DNA from: Candidatus Woesebacteria bacterium GW2011_GWB1_39_12
GTDB taxonomy: Bacteria > Patescibacteriota > Microgenomatia > UBA8517
Reading direction: 5' to 3'
DNA: 37,776 nt
Assembly: GCA_000993405.1 (NCBI GenBank)
Contig: LBWB01000012.1
Span: 1-37,776, forward strand
Position numbers and translations under genes: made by a program. Under the pieces are notes generated by a model. It saw only the letters and a program-made list of their open reading frames with translations, did not search any database and was not told where the DNA came from. This document shows positions 8,831-34,493 of the stretch, piece by piece. Position 1 is the stretch's first letter. Each line of letters begins with the position of its first letter.

Positions 8831-9916
8831 ATGAAAGTTGCACTGGTTTATGACCGGGTGAATAAGTGGGGAGGGGCGGAAAGAGTACTTCTAGCCTTGC
8901 ACGAAATGTTTCCTGATGCTCCTCTTTATACCTCGGTCTATGATGAAAAGCGTGCTCCCTGGGCGAAAGTTTTTCCTAGAGTAATCCCCTCTTTTTTGCA
9001 GAAAATTCCTGGCGCAAATTCGAGACACGAATGGCTTGCGGCAATGATGCCTATCGCGTTTGAGACTCTAGATTTTACAGGGTACGACCTTGTAATTTCC
9101 GTAACTAGCGAGGCAGCAAAGGGAGTTATTACAAGACCGCCGGCAAAGCATGTCTGTTACTGTCTAACCCCCACCCGATATCTCTGGAGCCACCGTGATG
9201 AGTATTTTAAGGGTACGACCCTGAAAACCATCTCAAAACCCGTTGTTAGTTATCTAAGGTATTGGGATAGGATTGCAGCTCAAAGACCGGATATAATAAT
9301 TTCGATCTCAACTGCCGTTAAAGATAGAGTCAGGAAATATTATGAAAGAGAGTCTGAGGTTATTTTCCCTCCGGTTGAGATCGAAAAATTCCAAATTCCA
9401 AATTCCCCTCCTTCGCCAAGGCTTCGGCGGGCAAGTAAATTCCAAATTGAAGATAAGGACTATTTTTTGATTGTTTCGAGACTGGTTCCATACAAGAAGG
9501 TTGATTTGGCGATCGAGGCTTTTAATGAACTTGGTTATTCTTTAGTAGTTGTTGGAACAGGAAGCGAGGAAAATAAGCTGAAGTCTATGTCCAAGAATAA
9601 CATTACTTTTAGAGAAGAAGATTTCGGAATAGTTGCGGTTGAAGCCCAAGCGGTAGGAGCTCCAGTTATCGCTTACAAAAAAGGTGGAGCGTTAGATACG
9701 GTGATAGATCCTTCGGTGGGCTCAGGACGCTTCGCGACAGGAATATTTTTTAAGGAGCAGACAAAGGAGTCTTTAATCAAAGCGGTTAAACACTACGATG
9801 ATTCGAATCAACGTAGTGAAATGAGTAGAGAATGTATTAAAAATGCAAAAAAGTTTTCGAAGGAACGATTTAAGAAGGAGTTTGCAAAACTTGTTGAAAA
9901 ATATGTAAGTGGTTAG
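8831..9916 (+). CDS. Glycosyltransferase family 4 (contains a repeat insertion and an apparent internal deletion)
   Basis: VYDRVNKWGGAERVLLALHEMFPDAPLYTS, CYCLTPTRYLWSH, YFLIVSRLVPYKKVDLAIEAF, EEDFGIVAVEAQAVGAPVIAYKKGGALDTV. Confidence 0.88.
   Translation: MKVALVYDRVNKWGGAERVLLALHEMFPDAPLYTSVYDEKRAPWAKVFPRVIPSFLQKIPGANSRHEWLAAMMPIAFETLDFTGYDLVISVTSEAAKGVITRPPAKHVCYCLTPTRYLWSHRDEYFKGTTLKTISKPVVSYLRYWDRIAAQRPDIIISISTAVKDRVRKYYERESEVIFPPVEIEKFQIPNSPPSPRLRRASKFQIEDKDYFLIVSRLVPYKKVDLAIEAFNELGYSLVVVGTGSEENKLKSMSKNNITFREEDFGIVAVEAQAVGAPVIAYKKGGALDTVIDPSVGSGRFATGIFFKEQTKESLIKAVKHYDDSNQRSEMSRECIKNAKKFSKERFKKEFAKLVEKYVSG
9386..9448. repeat. Palindromic repeat insertion flanked by 12-nt direct repeats
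   Basis: AAATTCCAAATT at 9386-9397/9393-9404 and 9437-9448 flank CCCCTCCTTCGCCAAGGCTTCGGCGGGCAAGT; adds SPPSPRLRRASKFQI-type peptide in frame. Confidence 0.65.
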
Positions 9917-11789: not shown

Positions 11790-13813
11790 ATGTCTGAAAA
11801 TTTTAATACAGAAGATAGTGGATCCATTTTAATTCCTAAAATTTCTCTATCCGAACATTCCGAGAAAGAGTTCGACGTGGCGATTAAAAGGATGAGACGT
11901 TTTTCGATAAATTTTCCAAAAGGCAAATGGGTTAAGTTTGTGGGTCTTTTACTTTTGGCTTTAATTATTATTGTAAGCCTTTTGGGTTTCTTAACTTTTA
12001 GGGTATATACAAAAGCACAGGCTTTTAGGAAATCCTTGGAGAATGTAAAACAGGCAGTTAGCCAGCAGGATTTGGAAAAGATTAAAAAAGAACTTAAAAC
12101 TTCACAAACATCTTTAAGAGATCTTGATTCAACTTATAAAGGGATTTCTTGGCTTGGAATAGTTCCTTTTTTGGGGTCATATGTAAGAGATGGGCAAAAT
12201 GCTATTTCTGCTGCTAAATATGGATTTGAAGCAGCAAATATGGATTTGAAGCAGCCGACGTTGTTATTGAAACCATTGAGCCGTATGCTGACATAATTGG
12301 CTTTTCTTCCGATGTAAAGCAGTCCGGTAGTCCCGAAGAGACAACTCAGGATAGAATTGATTTTGTCATAAAGACGATTCCTGATCTTATTCCAAAGATT
12401 GATTTACTTTCCGAAAAGGCAGAGTTGATAAAAAAAGAAGTAGATTTGATTGATGCGGAGCGCTATCCCGAAAATGCTTTTGGTTTTGCGGTAAGAGAAA
12501 AACTTAAGGAAGGAAAAGACCTGGTTGACGTAGCCAGCGAGTTGGTCGCAAACTCTAAGCCTTTAATGGAGGTTGCCCCGGATCTTTTAGGAATCAAGGA
12601 TGAAAAAAGATACTTGGTGATTTTTCAGAACGACAAGGAGCTTAGACCCACTGGCGGATTTATAACGGCTTACTCTATTGCCAAAGTCAATAAAGGCAGG
12701 TTCGAACCCGTATTATCGGATGATATTTATAATTTGGATAATAAATATAAGCCCAAAGTTGAGGCTCCCGGTCCCCTCATCAAATATATTAAGGGGCCAT
12801 ACCTTTTATCAACAAATTTACGTCTCAGAGACATGAACTGGTCGCCTGATTTTGGCGAGGCGATGAAACTTTTCGGCAAAGAGGTGGAGAGTGTCGGCAT
12901 CAAAAATATAGACGGAATAATTGCCGTTGATACTCAGGTTTTGGTTAACATCCTTGATGTAATTGGACCAATTGGCGTTTCCGGTTTTGGTGAATACTCA
13001 ACAAAAGAAGTTCCTGACTGTAAATGCCCGCAGGTAATTTATGAGCTTGAAAGCTTTGCGGATATAGAAGGTCCCATTGTCTGGAGTGAAAACGAGCCCG
13101 GTAAAATTGTCTATGCGCCTCCTAATTATGACAATAGGAAAAAGATAATCGGTCCATTGATGAATTCAATTTTGGCCAATGCTTTGGGGCAACCCAAAGA
13201 AAAGTTGGCTCCCCTTTTTGAAGCTGTTTTTAAGTCATTTATTGAAAAACACGTCCTTTTTTATGCTTCGAATGCTAAAGCCCAGGAGGCGCTTGATGCT
13301 TTTGGAATTGCCGGAACCCTTAAAGACTATGAAGGTGATTATCTTCACATAAATAATGCAAACCTTGGAGGCAGAAAATCAAACCTTTATATTAAAGAAG
13401 AAATTTCACAAGAAATGGAAGTTGGGAAAGACGGTAGTATTGTAAAAACCGTCATAATTACTTACAAAAATCCCGAAAAACACGACGGCTGGCTCAATTC
13501 TGTTCTTCCGAACTGGGTAAGGATTTATGTTCCGAAAGGAAGCGAACTCATAGACTTTGCGGGCGTTGAAGAGAAGGTAGATCCATATGAAGAATTGGGT
13601 AAAACGGTTTTTGCAGGCTTTTTCAAATTAAGACCCGAGGGAATTGCGAAAGTAACACTCAAGTATAAGTTGCCTTTCAAGACAAGTAAGGAGTATAAAT
13701 TATTTATTCAAAAACAGCCCGGCAGTGATACTCCTTTATATTCTGTCAGTCTTAAAAAACACAAGGAGGAATTTTTCTTAAGGGTAGACAAGGAACTAAA
13801 GTTCACTATTTAG
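11790..13813 (+). pseudogene. DUF4012-type membrane-anchored protein, frameshifted by a 20-bp tandem duplication (ORFs 11790-12296 and 12425-13813)
   Basis: Removing one 20-bp unit restores ...AAKYGFEAADVVIETIEPYADIIGFSSDVKQSG... into the downstream ORF; downstream DUF4012 features LVIFQNDKELRPTGGFITAYSIAKV. Confidence 0.75.
12216..12255. repeat. Perfect 2 x 20-bp tandem duplication
   Basis: AAATATGGATTTGAAGCAGC at 12216-12235 and 12236-12255. Confidence 0.97.
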
Positions 13814-23100: not shown

Positions 23101-24681
23101 ATGAATCTTACCCGACTTCTTGAAGGTTTACTCGACTACAAAATTTATGGAAATAGAGATGTTAACATAGCTTCAATAACTGAGGATTCAAGACAAGTTA
23201 AAAAGAGAAATTTGTTTGTTGCCGTAAGGGGGCTAACAGTAGACGGCCATAAATTTATTCCTCAAGCGATCGAAAATGGGGCCTCGGTAATTGTTGGAGA
23301 AATTGATAAAACAAAAGTTAAAATTCCAAGAAGGGTAACTTACGTAAAAGTTGAAAGCTCCCGAAAGGCATTAGGCCATTTGGCTTCTAAATTTTACGGA
23401 GACCCTTCAGAAAAACTAAAAGTTATTGGAGTAACGGGAACCGACGGAAAAACAACCACGGCTTTCTTGATCTATCATATTTTGGCAACAGCCGGCAAGA
23501 AAGTGGGATTAGTAAGCACGGTTGCCGCGAAAATAGGTAGTAAAGAGGTCGATACTGGGTTACATGTCACTAATCCTGATCCGATGACTTTGCAGTTGTT
23601 CCTTGTAGATATGACAAAAGCAGGCTGTGAATTTGCTGTAGTTGAAGTTACTTCTCATGGACTTGATCAGGAAAGAGTTTCAGGAGTCAATTTTGATTCC
23701 GCTGTTCTTACCAATATTACCCACGAACACCTTGATTACCATAAAAATTTTGAAGAATACCGAGACACAAAAACGAAGCTTTTTCAGTCAGCAAAGAATT
23801 TTATCGTTCTCAATAAAGACGATGAATCTTCCGACTATATCTTAAAAGCAACTACCGTGCGAAATATTTTTTATAGTCTAAAAGATAGATCCTCTGATTT
23901 TTGTGCACAAAATATTCGAGAGGAAGGTGGTAATACCATTTTCGAAGTAATCAGCGGTGTAAATTCATTTAGTGTTCAGACTAAGCTGCCTGGAGAATAT
24001 AATGTTTCCAATAGCCTTGCTGCCATTGCTGTTGGTTTAGAATATGGTATAGAAGTAGATTCGATTAAAAAGGCACTTCAATTATTTAAAGCACCAAAAG
24101 GTCGTTTGGAGAAGATAGAGAATAACAAAGGATTTGAAATTTACATAGACTTTGCACATACGCCGAATTCTTTAGAACAGGTATTGAGTCTTTTAAAAAA
24201 GCGTATAGACCTAAGAGAAAAAAAAGGAAAACTAATAACTATATTCGGTTGTGCCGGAGAACGAGATAAAGTAAAAAGGCCGATAATGGGGGAAATTTCG
24301 TCTACCATTGCAGATATTTCGATTTTTACTGCTGAGGATCCAAGAAGCGAGGAATTGGAAAAGATTATCGGCCAAATGGTTATTGGCGCAAAGAGGTCGA
24401 AAGCTAAAGGAGTTAAATACACCTCCGAGGTGGCCGAATGGACTCCTCGGATAGTGGAAAATTTAAAAAAAGGCCACGTATTTTTCAGAATTCCTGAACG
24501 CGGTGAGGCAATATCTTTTGCCTTACAAAAACTTGCCCGAAAAGGCGATACGATTGTTATTTGCGGCAAAGGGCACGAAAAAAGCATGGCTTATAACGGT
24601 GTCGAATACGACTGGTCCGACGAAGAAGCTGTAAAGTTAGCTTTAAAGGGCGATGTTAAAGAAATAACTCGATCAAATTGA
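23101..24681 (+). CDS. murE: UDP-N-acetylmuramyl-tripeptide synthetase MurE
   Basis: GVTGTDGKTTTAFLIYHIL, EVTSHGLDQERV, DFAHTPNSLEQVL, EDPRSEE, ICGKGHEKSM. Confidence 0.93.
   Translation: MNLTRLLEGLLDYKIYGNRDVNIASITEDSRQVKKRNLFVAVRGLTVDGHKFIPQAIENGASVIVGEIDKTKVKIPRRVTYVKVESSRKALGHLASKFYGDPSEKLKVIGVTGTDGKTTTAFLIYHILATAGKKVGLVSTVAAKIGSKEVDTGLHVTNPDPMTLQLFLVDMTKAGCEFAVVEVTSHGLDQERVSGVNFDSAVLTNITHEHLDYHKNFEEYRDTKTKLFQSAKNFIVLNKDDESSDYILKATTVRNIFYSLKDRSSDFCAQNIREEGGNTIFEVISGVNSFSVQTKLPGEYNVSNSLAAIAVGLEYGIEVDSIKKALQLFKAPKGRLEKIENNKGFEIYIDFAHTPNSLEQVLSLLKKRIDLREKKGKLITIFGCAGERDKVKRPIMGEISSTIADISIFTAEDPRSEELEKIIGQMVIGAKRSKAKGVKYTSEVAEWTPRIVENLKKGHVFFRIPERGEAISFALQKLARKGDTIVICGKGHEKSMAYNGVEYDWSDEEAVKLALKGDVKEITRSN
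24420..24458. repeat. Palindromic repeat (family A, copy 2) inside murE
   Basis: TCCGAGG (24424-24430) / CCTCGGA (24445-24451); shared CACCTCCGAGGTG and CTCCTCGGA with 7021-7053, in another reading frame. Confidence 0.6.
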
Positions 24682-24695
24682 AGGGTACGACCCTG
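24681..24695. repeat. 15-nt palindromic repeat AAGGGTACGACCCTG (copy 2) between murE and murC
   Basis: Identical 15-mer at 9209-9223; AGGGT-ACG-ACCCT inverted repeat. Confidence 0.6.
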
Positions 24696-24707
24696 CAAGA
24701 TAGATCA

Positions 24708-26123
24708 ATGGATATAACAAAATTAAAACACATTCATTTTACCGGCGTAAAAGGTGTCGGAATGACTGCATTGGCATTATGCTTGCGTGACTTGGGAATT
24801 AAAGTAACGGGAAGTGATGTTGATGAGATTTTTGTAACAGACGAAGTTCTTAAAGAAAATAGTATAGAATGGAAGATTGGATTTGGAGAAAAAAATTTAA
24901 ACCCTAGGCCAGATTTAGTTGTTACAACTGCAGCCCATGGTGGACTTTTAAACCCCGAGGTTCAAAGGGCAAAAAATCTAGGTATTCAAATAACAACTTT
25001 TGCAGAGTTTTTAGCCGAACTTGCAAATACGAAGGAAGTTATTGGAGTTTGCGGAGTGGGAGGTAAAACAACTACGGCATCAATGATAACAGTTTTATTG
25101 AATGAAGCGGGGCTACATCCTTCCTTTGCAATAGGTGTTGGTAATATTTATCCCATCGGTGTTTCAGGAAGATTTGACAAGAAGGGGAAAAACTACGTTT
25201 GTGAGGCTGATGACTATGTAGTTTCTCCGGGAGTAGATAATACGCCGAAATTTATGCTTCTCGATCCTAAAGTCCTCGTTGTTACAAATATTGAATACGA
25301 CCATCCGGACATTTACTCCTCGTTCAAAGAAACAAAAAAAACGTTTAGAGAATTATTTGAGAAACTCCCGGATGGTGGCTTGCTTATCGCCTGCATTGAT
25401 AATTCCAACGTTTCCGACACAATCAAAGGGTTAAGAAAACCGGTGATAACTTATGGTTTTAATAAAGAGGCTGACTGGCAAATAAAGGACATTAAATTTA
25501 AAGATGAGAAAACATTTTTCTCTTTATATTCCAAGAAAGAAAACAGAACTTATGACAATTTAGAATTGGAAATTCCCGGTAGATTCAATGTACAAAATGC
25601 AACAGCCGCATTCATAGTTGGAAACTATTTAGGCATAAATGAGTTAGGTTTAAGGAAAGGGTTATCATCTTACTTGGGGTGTAGGAGGAGATTTGAAAAA
25701 ATGGGTATTTATAAAAATGCTTTGTTTTATGATGATTACGCACATCATCCAAAAGAAATTAAGTCTGTACTGATGGCAGCTAGGGAATGGTTTCCTAAAA
25801 AAAGAATTGTGTCTATTTTTCAACCCCATACCTATTCGAGAACAAAGGCTTTGTTTAAGGAATTTTCAGAAGCCTTTGATGACGCAGACATAGTTGGTTT
25901 TATGGATATCTACTCTTCTGCCCGAGAATCAAAAGATTCTTCTGTCTCATCTGAACTACTTGCAAAGGAAACTAGAAAAAACAATCCTGAAGTTTACTAT
26001 CTTGGAAGTCATAAAAGAACTTTAGAGTGGATGAACAAAAATGTTAAAAAAGGTGACATTGTCCTGACGTTGGGAGCGGGCGATATATTCCATATATATA
26101 ATCAGCTATTCAAAGATAGTTAA
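24708..26123 (+). CDS. murC: UDP-N-acetylmuramate--L-alanine ligase MurC
   Basis: HIHFTGVKGVGMTALAL, GVCGVGGKTTTASM, YDDYAHHPKEIKSVLMAAR, FQPHTYSRTKAL; ATG 24708 preferred to TTG 24678. Confidence 0.92.
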   Translation: MDITKLKHIHFTGVKGVGMTALALCLRDLGIKVTGSDVDEIFVTDEVLKENSIEWKIGFGEKNLNPRPDLVVTTAAHGGLLNPEVQRAKNLGIQITTFAEFLAELANTKEVIGVCGVGGKTTTASMITVLLNEAGLHPSFAIGVGNIYPIGVSGRFDKKGKNYVCEADDYVVSPGVDNTPKFMLLDPKVLVVTNIEYDHPDIYSSFKETKKTFRELFEKLPDGGLLIACIDNSNVSDTIKGLRKPVITYGFNKEADWQIKDIKFKDEKTFFSLYSKKENRTYDNLELEIPGRFNVQNATAAFIVGNYLGINELGLRKGLSSYLGCRRRFEKMGIYKNALFYDDYAHHPKEIKSVLMAAREWFPKKRIVSIFQPHTYSRTKALFKEFSEAFDDADIVGFMDIYSSARESKDSSVSSELLAKETRKNNPEVYYLGSHKRTLEWMNKNVKKGDIVLTLGAGDIFHIYNQLFKDS

Positions 26124-27487: not shown

Positions 27488-28648
27488 GTGGGTGATATTA
27501 ATAAACTTAGGGACATATTAGGTAAGAAAGCCCGGTTGGGTGAACCTCTTTCTGGCCACACCTTCTTAAAAATCGGTGGGACTTCGGATATTTTTTACGA
27601 AGCGGAAACGACGGATGATTTTAAAAAGGCAGTTGTTGAAGCTAGGAAGCTTGAGATTCCAATAACCATACTTGGAGATGGAAGCAATGTATTAATTTCG
27701 GACAATGGAATCAAGGGACTAGTCCTAATTGATCGTTCGGATAAGATCGAAATTTTGGATGAAGACAAGGAGGGAATTAATCTAAAAAAAATAAAAAAGC
27801 CAATATATCGCTGGGAGTCTGACAAAAAGCAAGGAACCTTTAAATATGAATTTAAGGATCTGGACTATGATGAAAGCGAGAAATCCCGGGTCCGGGTTCA
27901 AATGGATAGCGGCGTTAACCTTCCAAAAGCAATCGACTTTCTTTTGGACAAAGGTATAACGGGATTGCAATGGTACGCCGGAATTCCGGGAACAATTGGG
28001 GGAGCTATTTTTAATAACATCCATGGTGGGACTCACTTTATGAGTGAAGTATTGGATAGCGTTACCGTTCTTGATTTACAAGGAGGCAGTAACACATTAA
28101 GAATTGAGGATCTTGGAGTAGATTACGATAAAAGTCGTTTTCAGGATACCGGTGAAATAATACTTGACGCCACTTTTTTGCTTTTCAAGGGGGACGTTGA
28201 TAAAGCTAAATATGTCCGCTTTGAATGGGCTAAAAGAAAAAGCTTGCAACCCCGAAACGCTCCCGGTTGTGCTTTTCATAATTTAACTCAGGAACAAAAA
28301 GAAAAATTGGGAATTCCGACAACCAGTGCAGGTTTTGTAATTGAGCACCTTTTGAAAATGACAGGTTTTAAAATTGGAGATGCAGCTATTTCCAAAGACC
28401 ACCATAACTTTATTGTCAATGAGGGCAAAGCGACTGCCAAAAATTATCTTGAAGTAATGAAGACTATTTACAATAAAGCCAAGAAGGAATTGGGGATAGA
28501 GTTGGTGCCGGAAATTTTCTTACTTGGGTTTAGTGAAGATGAAATTAAAGAGTTCAGACACCCAAGACAACTCGAACTCCGTAAAAAAAGATTATACGAA
28601 ATAAGAACTATTTACAAAGACAGTAAGAAATTATTTTCCCCCAAGTGA
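27488..28648 (+). CDS. murB: UDP-N-acetylenolpyruvoylglucosamine reductase MurB
   Basis: HTFLKIGGTSDIFYEAET, ILGDGSNVLISD, GLQWYAGIPGTIGGAIFNN, APGCAFHNL, SAGFVIEHLLKMTGFKIGDAAIS. Confidence 0.92.
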   Translation: MGDINKLRDILGKKARLGEPLSGHTFLKIGGTSDIFYEAETTDDFKKAVVEARKLEIPITILGDGSNVLISDNGIKGLVLIDRSDKIEILDEDKEGINLKKIKKPIYRWESDKKQGTFKYEFKDLDYDESEKSRVRVQMDSGVNLPKAIDFLLDKGITGLQWYAGIPGTIGGAIFNNIHGGTHFMSEVLDSVTVLDLQGGSNTLRIEDLGVDYDKSRFQDTGEIILDATFLLFKGDVDKAKYVRFEWAKRKSLQPRNAPGCAFHNLTQEQKEKLGIPTTSAGFVIEHLLKMTGFKIGDAAISKDHHNFIVNEGKATAKNYLEVMKTIYNKAKKELGIELVPEIFLLGFSEDEIKEFRHPRQLELRKKRLYEIRTIYKDSKKLFSPK

Positions 28649-29954
28649 TTGTGATTACGAAAGATTTCAAAGACAAGAAGGTAGCAGTTATTGGTCTAGG
28701 AATAGAAGGCTCAAGCGTTGTAAGATTTTTACAAGATAAGGATGCCCAGATAACAATATTTGATAGGAAAAAGGAAAGCGAGTTGGACTTCAAGGGCATT
28801 GACAAAAGTAAAATAAAAACAGTTTGTGGAGAAAAGTACTTGTCTCGGGGGTTTAAGGAGTTTGATATCATTTTCCGTTCCCAAGGAGTAAAGCGGAATC
28901 TGCTCCAAATTTTGGAAGCAGAGGAAGTTGGTGTTGAGATATCGAGCGAAATCAAACTTTTTTTTGATTTATCACCATCAAAGATAATCGGCGTTACAGG
29001 TACTAAAGGTAAGGGGACAACAAGCACCTTAATTTCTAATATATATTACCGCGATTGAAATCAACTAGCTGGGTTGTATTAGAATTATCTTCCACTCAAC
29101 TTACAGACTTACACAAAAGCCCGCACATCGCAGTTGTTTTAAATATAACCACAGATCATCTAGACTGGCATAAGGATAGAGAAGAGTATCTTGAGGCTAA
29201 GACACAGATTATTCGTCATCAAAAATCCAATGATATTGCAGTGCTAGCATACGATTATGAAGACGTTAGAGGTTTTTTGAAGTTGACACGAGGAAAGGTA
29301 TTCTATTTTAGTAATGCACAAAAAGTAAACGGATCGTATGTTAAGGATGGAAGAATATTACTTGAAGTTAGAAACAAGAAGATAGAGATTGGAAGAGCAG
29401 AGAAATTGTTGCTTAAAGGCCGACATAATTGGGAAAATGTGTGTGCGGCAGTTTGTGCATCCTACCTTGTAGGAGCAAGCATAGATTCAATTAAAGAAAC
29501 TGTATTTTCCTTCAAAGGATTGGAACATAGACTTGAACTTGTTGGAGAAGTTGGCGGTGTTAAGTTTTATAATGACTCGTTTTCCACAAACCCCCAGACC
29601 ACCATTGCAGCAATTAAATCATTTTCAGAGCCGATTACCCTTATCTTGGGTGGATCTGATAAGGGTTTAAATTATGACGAGATGGCAAGAGAAATTACAA
29701 AATCAACTGTTCTGAATAGTATTATAATAGGTGATATTTCTAAAAAAATAAAAAGATCACTTCAAAAATCTGGTTACAAACAAAACATAACCGAGCTTGG
29801 TTATCCAAAAACAAAAAAGATAATAGAAGAAGCGGTTAAAGTAACTCCCAAGGGTGGAATAGTGTTATTATCCCCCGCCGCAGCCTCATTTGACATGTTT
29901 AAAGATTATAAAGACAGAGGAAATCAGTTTAAAGAAGCCGTTAAGGTGTTATAA
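28645..29954 (+). pseudogene. murD: MurD (UDP-N-acetylmuramoyl-L-alanine--D-glutamate ligase), split/disrupted (ORFs 28645-29058 and 29055-29954)
   Basis: N part VAVIGLGIEGSSVVRFL...GVTGTKGKGTTSTLISN; C part SWVVLELSSTQLTDLHKSPHIAVVLNITTDHLDWH...HRLELVGEVGGVKFYNDSFSTNPQTTIAAI; the segment between P-loop and WVVLELSS is missing. Confidence 0.8.
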
Positions 29955-31654: not shown

Positions 31655-33249
31655 TAATTATCTATTTGATAATCATTCTTTTGTGGCTGCCTCAGGCAGT
31701 GTATCAAATCTTAACCTGGACATATTGGTGGCAAATTAAAGAATATAGATTTGACAGATTTTGGGTATTTCTCAAAACGTCCTATGGCAGAGAGAAATTA
31801 GGTTTATACTCAATTTGCCTTAAATTCTTGGCGTTGATTTTAGGAGTATTTTATCTCCCCATCCCCTTCTTCATTTTTGCATTTCAAGACATCCTTTTTT
31901 TAAGAAACGTGTTTCTTAGGCGTGTAAGAATACCGGTTGTAACAGAAAGAGTCGAAAAAATTTTTGTGACAAGTTTCTTCGCTATGGTGATAACAATTTT
32001 TGTCTTACTAGATCCTCGAAAAGTTTTAGGTTCACTTTTATTTGGCGAAATGTTGCTGCTTATTACTCCTTATGTTGGAATATTGTGGACCATTCCTATC
32101 GTAAATAAAATCAAAAGAAAAGAGATTGAAAAAGCTAAGAAGGTTTTATCTTTAGTAAACCCAACAGTAGTTGGAATTACCGGTAGTTATGGTAAAACAA
32201 CGACCAAAGAATTTGTAGCCCATCTTTTATCGCAGAAATATACCACCGCCAAAACGGAAGGAAGTGAGAATACGGAGTTTGGAATTGCAAGGAAAACTTT
32301 CAAAAATGTTGTAAAAGGAACCAAATTTTTTGTGGTAGAAATGGGTGCATATAAAGCTGGCGAAATTAAAAAGCTTGCAGGGATAGTTCGTCCTACAATA
32401 GGAATAATAACAGGCATAGAGGAACAACATCTTTCTTTATTTGGAAGTTTAGAAAATATTAAGAAAGCAAAGTTTGAATTAATCGAGAGCCTGCCTAAAG
32501 GAGGAGTTGCAATATTTAATTATTCCAATAAGTATTGTAGAGAACTTGCCGGCTGGGCTACAAAACTACCGACAAAATTAGAGGTCTTGGGATATTATGT
32601 AAAAAATAAAGGTAATAAAGAAGATATAAATACCGATATTTTTTCGGAAGTGCTGTCGGTTAATCGCGAAAAAATTTCTTTCAAAGTCGCTCTCGGAGAG
32701 GAACAGAAAAAACTATCAGCTAACCTCCCTGGTTTGCACTTTCTAGAAAACTTGACCTGCGCAGTTTTAGTCGCAAAATTTTTGGGAGTTTCCTGGAAAG
32801 ATATTGAGAAAGGGTGCAAAAGTATTGCCGTTCCTGAAAATACGATGGATGTTTATAAGTTAAAATCAGGTAGTATAATCATTGACGACACTCATAACTC
32901 GACTCCTTTGGCTTTCGAATCAGCCCTAAAATATTTGTCTTATTTTAAAGACAAAAAGAAAGTCGTTATTACAAGCGGTATTATAGAATTGGGGGTTACA
33001 AGTGAGTCGGTTCATGAACGTATTGGAAATATTATGTCTGAAAATATTGATAAAATAATTCTTACTAACTCCGATTTTTACGAGAGTATAAAGTCAGGTT
33101 TGGGAGATAAGTCAAATAGACTTATATTAGGTAATGATAGGTCTTTAGATTCTGAGATTGCAAAAATAATTACTTCTGAGAAATCCGTTATTTTACTGGA
33201 AGGTCGCTTACCGACCATAATACTTGAGGTGATACAAAAACAAAAATGA
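31633..33249 (+). CDS. murF: MurF-like Mur ligase with N-terminal multi-pass membrane region
   Basis: Several hydrophobic segments in the first ~165 aa; VVGITGSYGKTTTKEFVAHLL at ~residue 181; VEMGAYKAGEIKKLAGIVRPTIGIITGIEEQHLSLFGS; DDTHNSTPLAFESAL. Confidence 0.85.
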   Translation: MVDFTTIIIIYLIIILLWLPQAVYQILTWTYWWQIKEYRFDRFWVFLKTSYGREKLGLYSICLKFLALILGVFYLPIPFFIFAFQDILFLRNVFLRRVRIPVVTERVEKIFVTSFFAMVITIFVLLDPRKVLGSLLFGEMLLLITPYVGILWTIPIVNKIKRKEIEKAKKVLSLVNPTVVGITGSYGKTTTKEFVAHLLSQKYTTAKTEGSENTEFGIARKTFKNVVKGTKFFVVEMGAYKAGEIKKLAGIVRPTIGIITGIEEQHLSLFGSLENIKKAKFELIESLPKGGVAIFNYSNKYCRELAGWATKLPTKLEVLGYYVKNKGNKEDINTDIFSEVLSVNREKISFKVALGEEQKKLSANLPGLHFLENLTCAVLVAKFLGVSWKDIEKGCKSIAVPENTMDVYKLKSGSIIIDDTHNSTPLAFESALKYLSYFKDKKKVVITSGIIELGVTSESVHERIGNIMSENIDKIILTNSDFYESIKSGLGDKSNRLILGNDRSLDSEIAKIITSEKSVILLEGRLPTIILEVIQKQK

Positions 33250-34493
33250 AAAGACCTATTGCAATTTCACTATCACCAAATAGTGAAAAAGATGATGTAA
33301 TTTTGGCTTTAAAATTACTATTTTCTCCGATCCAATGGTTTAATTTTAGGAAAACAGAGGATCTAGAGAAACAGCTTTCTAAAATTTTCGGATCGGATTA
33401 TAAAGCCATTGCAGTCAATAGTGGTCGAAGCGCGTTATACCTTATTTTAAAAACGCTTGGCATTGGTCAAGGGGATGAAGTTTGTCTTCAAGCTCTTACT
33501 TGTGTAGCAGTTCCAAACTCAATACTTTGGTTGAAAGCTAAACCTGTCTATATCGACGTCGATAATTCTTTTAATCTGGAGCCAAAAGATCTTAGTGAAA
33601 AGCTCAGTGAAAATACGAGGGCAATTATTGTTCAACATTCTTTTGGAATTCCGGCAGACTTAGATAAGATTAAAAAATTTACTCAAGGAAGAAAGATTAC
33701 TTTAATTGAAGATTGTGCTTTATCCTTAGGCGGAAAGTTTAACAATAAATTACTTGGTACTATCGGAGATGTGTCCTTTTTTAGTTTCGGGCGCGACAAA
33801 GTAATTTCGAGTATTTTTGGCGGGTTTATTCTTTGCAAAGATAAAAAATTATGTAAGAAGTTGTTGGAGGAAAGAGATAAACTCAATTATCCCGGTGCAC
33901 GGTGGGTCATTCAGCAGCTTTTACACCCAATTCTTTTCAGTATAATTTTACCGCTTTACAACTTTGGCCTTGGTAAAACAACTTTTGGTAAAATGATGCT
34001 TTTTCTTTTTCAAAAATTTGGGCTTCTTTCAAAGTCTGTTTATAGACAAGAAGAAATTGGAAAGCAGCCTAAGGTTTTTCCCACAAAACTTCCGGGTGCA
34101 CTTTCAATTTTAGCCTTGAACCAACTCTACAAGCTCGATAAGTTCAATAATCATAGAAAGGAAATTGCCAATTTTTATTTTAAAAAACTTAAAGTCCCTA
34201 ATATCAAATTACCGAATAAAAGGGAAGGAGCCGTTTGGGTAAGATTTCCTATCATAAGTGAAAAAGCGATGAAAATTTTCGAATGTCTGAAGAAAAACGG
34301 AGTGCTTGTGGGTGATTGGTACAAAGATATCGTTGTTCCTGTTAAGAATTTGTCTATGGTTGGTTATGAGAGGGGAAGCTGTCCTAACGCCCAAAAACTT
34401 GTTGGTAAAATATTAAATCTTCCAACATATCCGTCTTTAAGTAAAAAAGATGCAGAGAAAGTAGTTCATTTAATTGAATCATGTCTAAATTAG
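33246..34493 (+). CDS. DegT/DnrJ/EryC1-family PLP aminotransferase
   Basis: AVNSGRSALYLILKTLGIGQGDEVCLQALTCVAVPN, LIEDCALSLGGKFNNKLLGTIGDVSFFSFGRDKVIS. Confidence 0.88.
   Translation: MKRPIAISLSPNSEKDDVILALKLLFSPIQWFNFRKTEDLEKQLSKIFGSDYKAIAVNSGRSALYLILKTLGIGQGDEVCLQALTCVAVPNSILWLKAKPVYIDVDNSFNLEPKDLSEKLSENTRAIIVQHSFGIPADLDKIKKFTQGRKITLIEDCALSLGGKFNNKLLGTIGDVSFFSFGRDKVISSIFGGFILCKDKKLCKKLLEERDKLNYPGARWVIQQLLHPILFSIILPLYNFGLGKTTFGKMMLFLFQKFGLLSKSVYRQEEIGKQPKVFPTKLPGALSILALNQLYKLDKFNNHRKEIANFYFKKLKVPNIKLPNKREGAVWVRFPIISEKAMKIFECLKKNGVLVGDWYKDIVVPVKNLSMVGYERGSCPNAQKLVGKILNLPTYPSLSKKDAEKVVHLIESCLN

Follow-up and report, generated by a model that had tools for sequence, protein, structure and literature searches.

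A 61-nucleotide gap that splits the murD of a Woesebacteria-type draft genome is probably a local assembly error

The only murD found in the draft genome of a Woesebacteria-type Patescibacterium is broken into two reading frames by a single gap of 61 nucleotides. We consider this gap very probably a local assembly error, because at least seven further genes of this assembly, conserved and unrelated to murD, bear matching lesions of 20-66 nt; judged from these sequence comparisons, an ordinary, unbroken murD is most likely present in the murein/division cluster of the organism itself. Taken at face value, the break would make it seem that a CPR bacterium had lost an essential cell-wall enzyme. 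With such lesions recurring, gene absences in this and similar drafts need read checks before metabolic conclusions are drawn from them. The genome (1.51 Mb in 56 contigs, 99% complete) is the sole member of its genus and has its nearest relatives among the Candidatus Woesebacteria assemblies; the stretch analyzed, called the window in the following, comprises the first 37,776 bases of its 143.5-kb contig C12.

The N-terminal murD fragment (positions 28645-29058, plus strand; PF21799; TIGR01087 positions 1-125) starts with GTG, contains the P-loop as GTKGKGTT, in agreement with the pattern G-T-x-GK-x-TT, and closes with out-of-frame residues before a TGA stop (last residues GVTGTKGKGTTSTLISNIYYRD). 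The C-terminal fragment (29055-29954, plus strand; TIGR01087 positions 152-440) carries the rest of the middle domain and the C-terminal domain. Its TTG start overlaps the TGA of the first fragment (29055-29058), and its frame is already open from 29040, 5' of the TTG, where 29043-29057 translates to I-LPRL, corresponding to LLPKL in relatives. Both the place of the split and the TTG/TGA overlap are as given in a preliminary description of this DNA. The C-terminal fragment alone scores 262 bits against TIGR01087 and the N-terminal fragment 86 (curated cut-off 212), and the N-terminal, middle and C-terminal domains are spread over two fragments in two frames rather than lying in one. In comparison with known MurD proteins (TIGR01087; PDB 3lk7, 2jff and others), model positions 1-125 and 152-440 align and the other regions are present; what sets the window murD apart is a frameshift and the loss of about 20-21 residues, among them the GNIG loop.

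When the DNA is aligned with that of six syntenic relatives, a single gap of 61 nt appears at about 29044 (junction ATATATTA, 29041-29048, plus strand, the breakpoint being uncertain by a few bases), and HSP arithmetic likewise gives a net change of -61. The lesion is thus a deletion of 20-21 codons plus a frameshift and no simple 1-2 nt indel, as had been recognized before; the earlier estimate of its size (25-30 residues or 80-90 bp) was too large. The lost segment comes directly after the P-loop helix. The stretch from GVTG to SSxQL comprises 58 amino acids in 27 of 32 comparators and 113 nt in the window murD, and the motif GN[IVL]G, present in all 32 comparators (each with a recognizable P-loop-to-SSxQL stretch), is missing from it, which bears out the claimed loss of a conserved loop. 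From motif alignment and general knowledge we take this loop to be the site of the equivalent of Asn138 in Escherichia coli MurD. In the E. coli enzyme, ligands in the active site contact Asn138, which belongs to the central domain (PMC3527612). The missing piece was found neither in another frame, as had been stated, nor on the other contigs. A search for RNA elements gave no Rfam match at the junction, and a scan for promoters and terminators around it was unremarkable.

The overlap of stop and start at 29055-29058 had raised the question of translational coupling, by which the two fragments might be made together and reassemble into a working MurD without the GNIG strand-loop. The overlap and the absence of the loop both stand, but a functional split enzyme is extremely unlikely, because neither fragment can supply the missing core loop, which is conserved in every comparator and would hold the Asn138 equivalent (PMC3527612). 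In addition, the N-terminal fragment finishes out of frame, inspection by eye revealed no Shine-Dalgarno-like sequence before the TTG of the C-terminal fragment, and no relative has such a split.

A search for a second or intact murD in the 56-contig, 99%-complete genome gave none, so that the window MurD is the only one found. Together with the clean appearance of the assembled deletion, this would fit a real and recent null mutation, in which the dominant genotype lost murD through the 61-nt deletion, the cells either taking up peptidoglycan precursors beyond the MurD step or lacking them, or in which a minor or doomed genotype of the population was recovered. We regard such a mutation as unlikely. 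The region is a murein/division cluster syntenic with that of Woesebacteria relatives, and its remaining genes are present and open (two murA, murB, murC, murE, a murF-like gene, mraY, ftsW, ftsI and rsmH); MurC, MurE and the MurF-like ligase are full-length, as previously noted. Outside the gap, both parts of murD are well conserved, and unrelated genes (ftsH, the DUF4012 gene and a glycosyltransferase gene) bear the same type of lesion.

These other lesions emerged from comparison of the window against five to six relatives, and of 1.15 Mb out of the 1.51-Mb genome against 1.0 Mb of G018, the closest relative; antisense shadow ORFs were excluded from the set of split genes. Among about 655 comparable genes in the 1.15 Mb there are eight lesions, murD included, all of 20-66 nt and all in otherwise open genes. 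Within the window, a GT4-type glycosyltransferase gene (8831-9916, plus strand) lacks 66 nt in frame between codons 9608-9610 and 9611-9613, corresponding to 22 residues conserved in five of five syntenic orthologues, and a DUF4012 gene (11790-13813), intact in five relatives, goes out of frame at a perfect tandem duplication of 20 bp (12216-12255, plus strand; AAATATGGATTTGAAGCAGC twice). Elsewhere, the only ftsH of the assembly has lost 65 nt with a frameshift (C14, about 29109), a pilM-like gene 44 nt (C4, about 22045) and a second ileS 25 nt directly before a KMSKS-like motif (C12, about 63320), and two uncharacterized genes carry perfect tandem duplications of 44 bp (C8:69639) and 53 bp (C8:105175). 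The relatives with which ileS, the pilM-like gene and the gene with the 44-bp duplication were compared have only 30-55% identity. An apparent split on C5, of low identity and net +802, was discounted as natural gene variation. An argument from damage to an essential tRNA synthetase was likewise dropped, since an intact ileS is present on C19; because of this second copy, the broken ileS could also tolerate real damage.

Several properties of this set argue for assembly error. Each damaged gene bears a single lesion within long conserved open frames, and the only ftsH of the assembly is among them. The three tandem duplications, including that in the DUF4012 gene, fall exactly at the gene splits, and three of the four aperiodic perfect tandem duplications of at least 19 nt in the assembly are gene-breaking. 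Ordinary gene decay or base-calling errors would yield frameshifts of 1-2 nt, whereas the size of the lesions here is that of the dropouts and duplicated flanks left by misjoins when short reads are assembled or gaps closed. Frameshifts of 1-2 nt are absent from the split genes found. The splits found in G018 range from -2 to +16 nt; on these alignments, lesions of 20-66 nt set this assembly apart from G018, which further favors an error of assembly. With bacterial pseudogenes formed by short deletions, the murD lesion shares a deletion and frameshift within one gene; decay is expected to bring many 1-2 nt frameshifts and stops, whereas here a class of 20-66 nt affects unrelated conserved genes. 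A point against an assembly error is the clustering of three of the eight lesions in a 20-kb part of the window, a pattern that a locally decaying region could also produce.

Errors of this kind are documented for metagenome assemblies: Chen et al. (2020) described, for metagenome-assembled genomes, errors of local assembly and joins with duplicated flanks, and counted 13 local assembly errors in one CPR genome of 1.13 Mb (PMC7111523). Common to both are drafts of good overall quality in which short, isolated dropouts and duplicated flanks break genes, and the frequency is of similar order (13 in 1.13 Mb versus 8 detected in 1.15 Mb here); the published errors were proved by read mapping, whereas the present ones are known from comparison with relatives alone. 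In a metagenome-assembled or similar short-read genome, as this draft would be, the assembler or gap-closer would have misjoined the two sides of the P-loop region of murD, losing 61 bases, and elsewhere the same process would have dropped 25-66 bases or written 20-53 bases twice. The assembled murD junction would then, we infer, go unsupported by reads. Consensus sequences from metagenomes can also be chimeric (PMC7111523) and minor contigs may be missing from a bin, and thus cells with deleted and with intact murD might coexist, the assembler having retained the deleted path. Such strain heterogeneity is highly improbable, as it requires the same coincidence at eight genes, and the genome bin contains no variant copy of murD.

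In G009, another metagenome assembly, the orthologue of the DegT-like aminotransferase gene at 33246-34493 of the window (L101-L103 region) lacks 30 aa from a conserved stretch, a loss unique to this genome. This may be an assembly error of like kind in a different draft, and as such it is a further argument for one here. Where the preliminary description had left the murD deletion as real or artefactual, the matching lesions in unrelated genes thus favor the artefact; its statement that the only MurD in view would be non-functional holds with respect to the only copy found, whereas the non-functionality is probably wrong in the light of the lesion pattern.

Across the family, a MurD above the cut-off almost always lies in a single open frame, which also argues for an assembly error in the window; the exceptions are G044, with an in-frame TAA, and G063, with a fragment at the edge of a contig. 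The same survey lends something to a real null mutation: in several genomes no MurD reaches the model cut-off, and some of these keep MurE- or MurC-like ligases. MurD is therefore not universal in the family, and from the sequences its loss there would not be unthinkable. A real deletion, with a Patescibacterium that has the rest of the murein cluster and lives MurD-free, for example on host-derived precursors, nevertheless appears very improbable. A search of the literature on murD loss in Patescibacteria yielded nothing useful.

Some observations on neighboring genes and on relatives may be added. The MurC of the window (24678-26123) is 62% identical to that of G012 and 58% to that of G014, versus only 33% to those of G018 and G009, elsewhere its closest relatives. 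These identities suggest that murC was replaced within the cluster by a version from a different lineage. In the murD of G044 (C1, L208), the TAA lies between GSVDKL and HNWENV, replacing the residues that precede HNWENV in relatives. G016, G038, G040, G042, G043, G049 and G052 have MurE- or MurC-like ligases but no MurD that reaches the TIGR01087 cut-off; this could be due to a diverged MurD, to its loss or to a different role of the ligases present. In G021 (C40, L107), one open frame of 849 amino acids spans murB and murD, apparently a MurB-MurD fusion.
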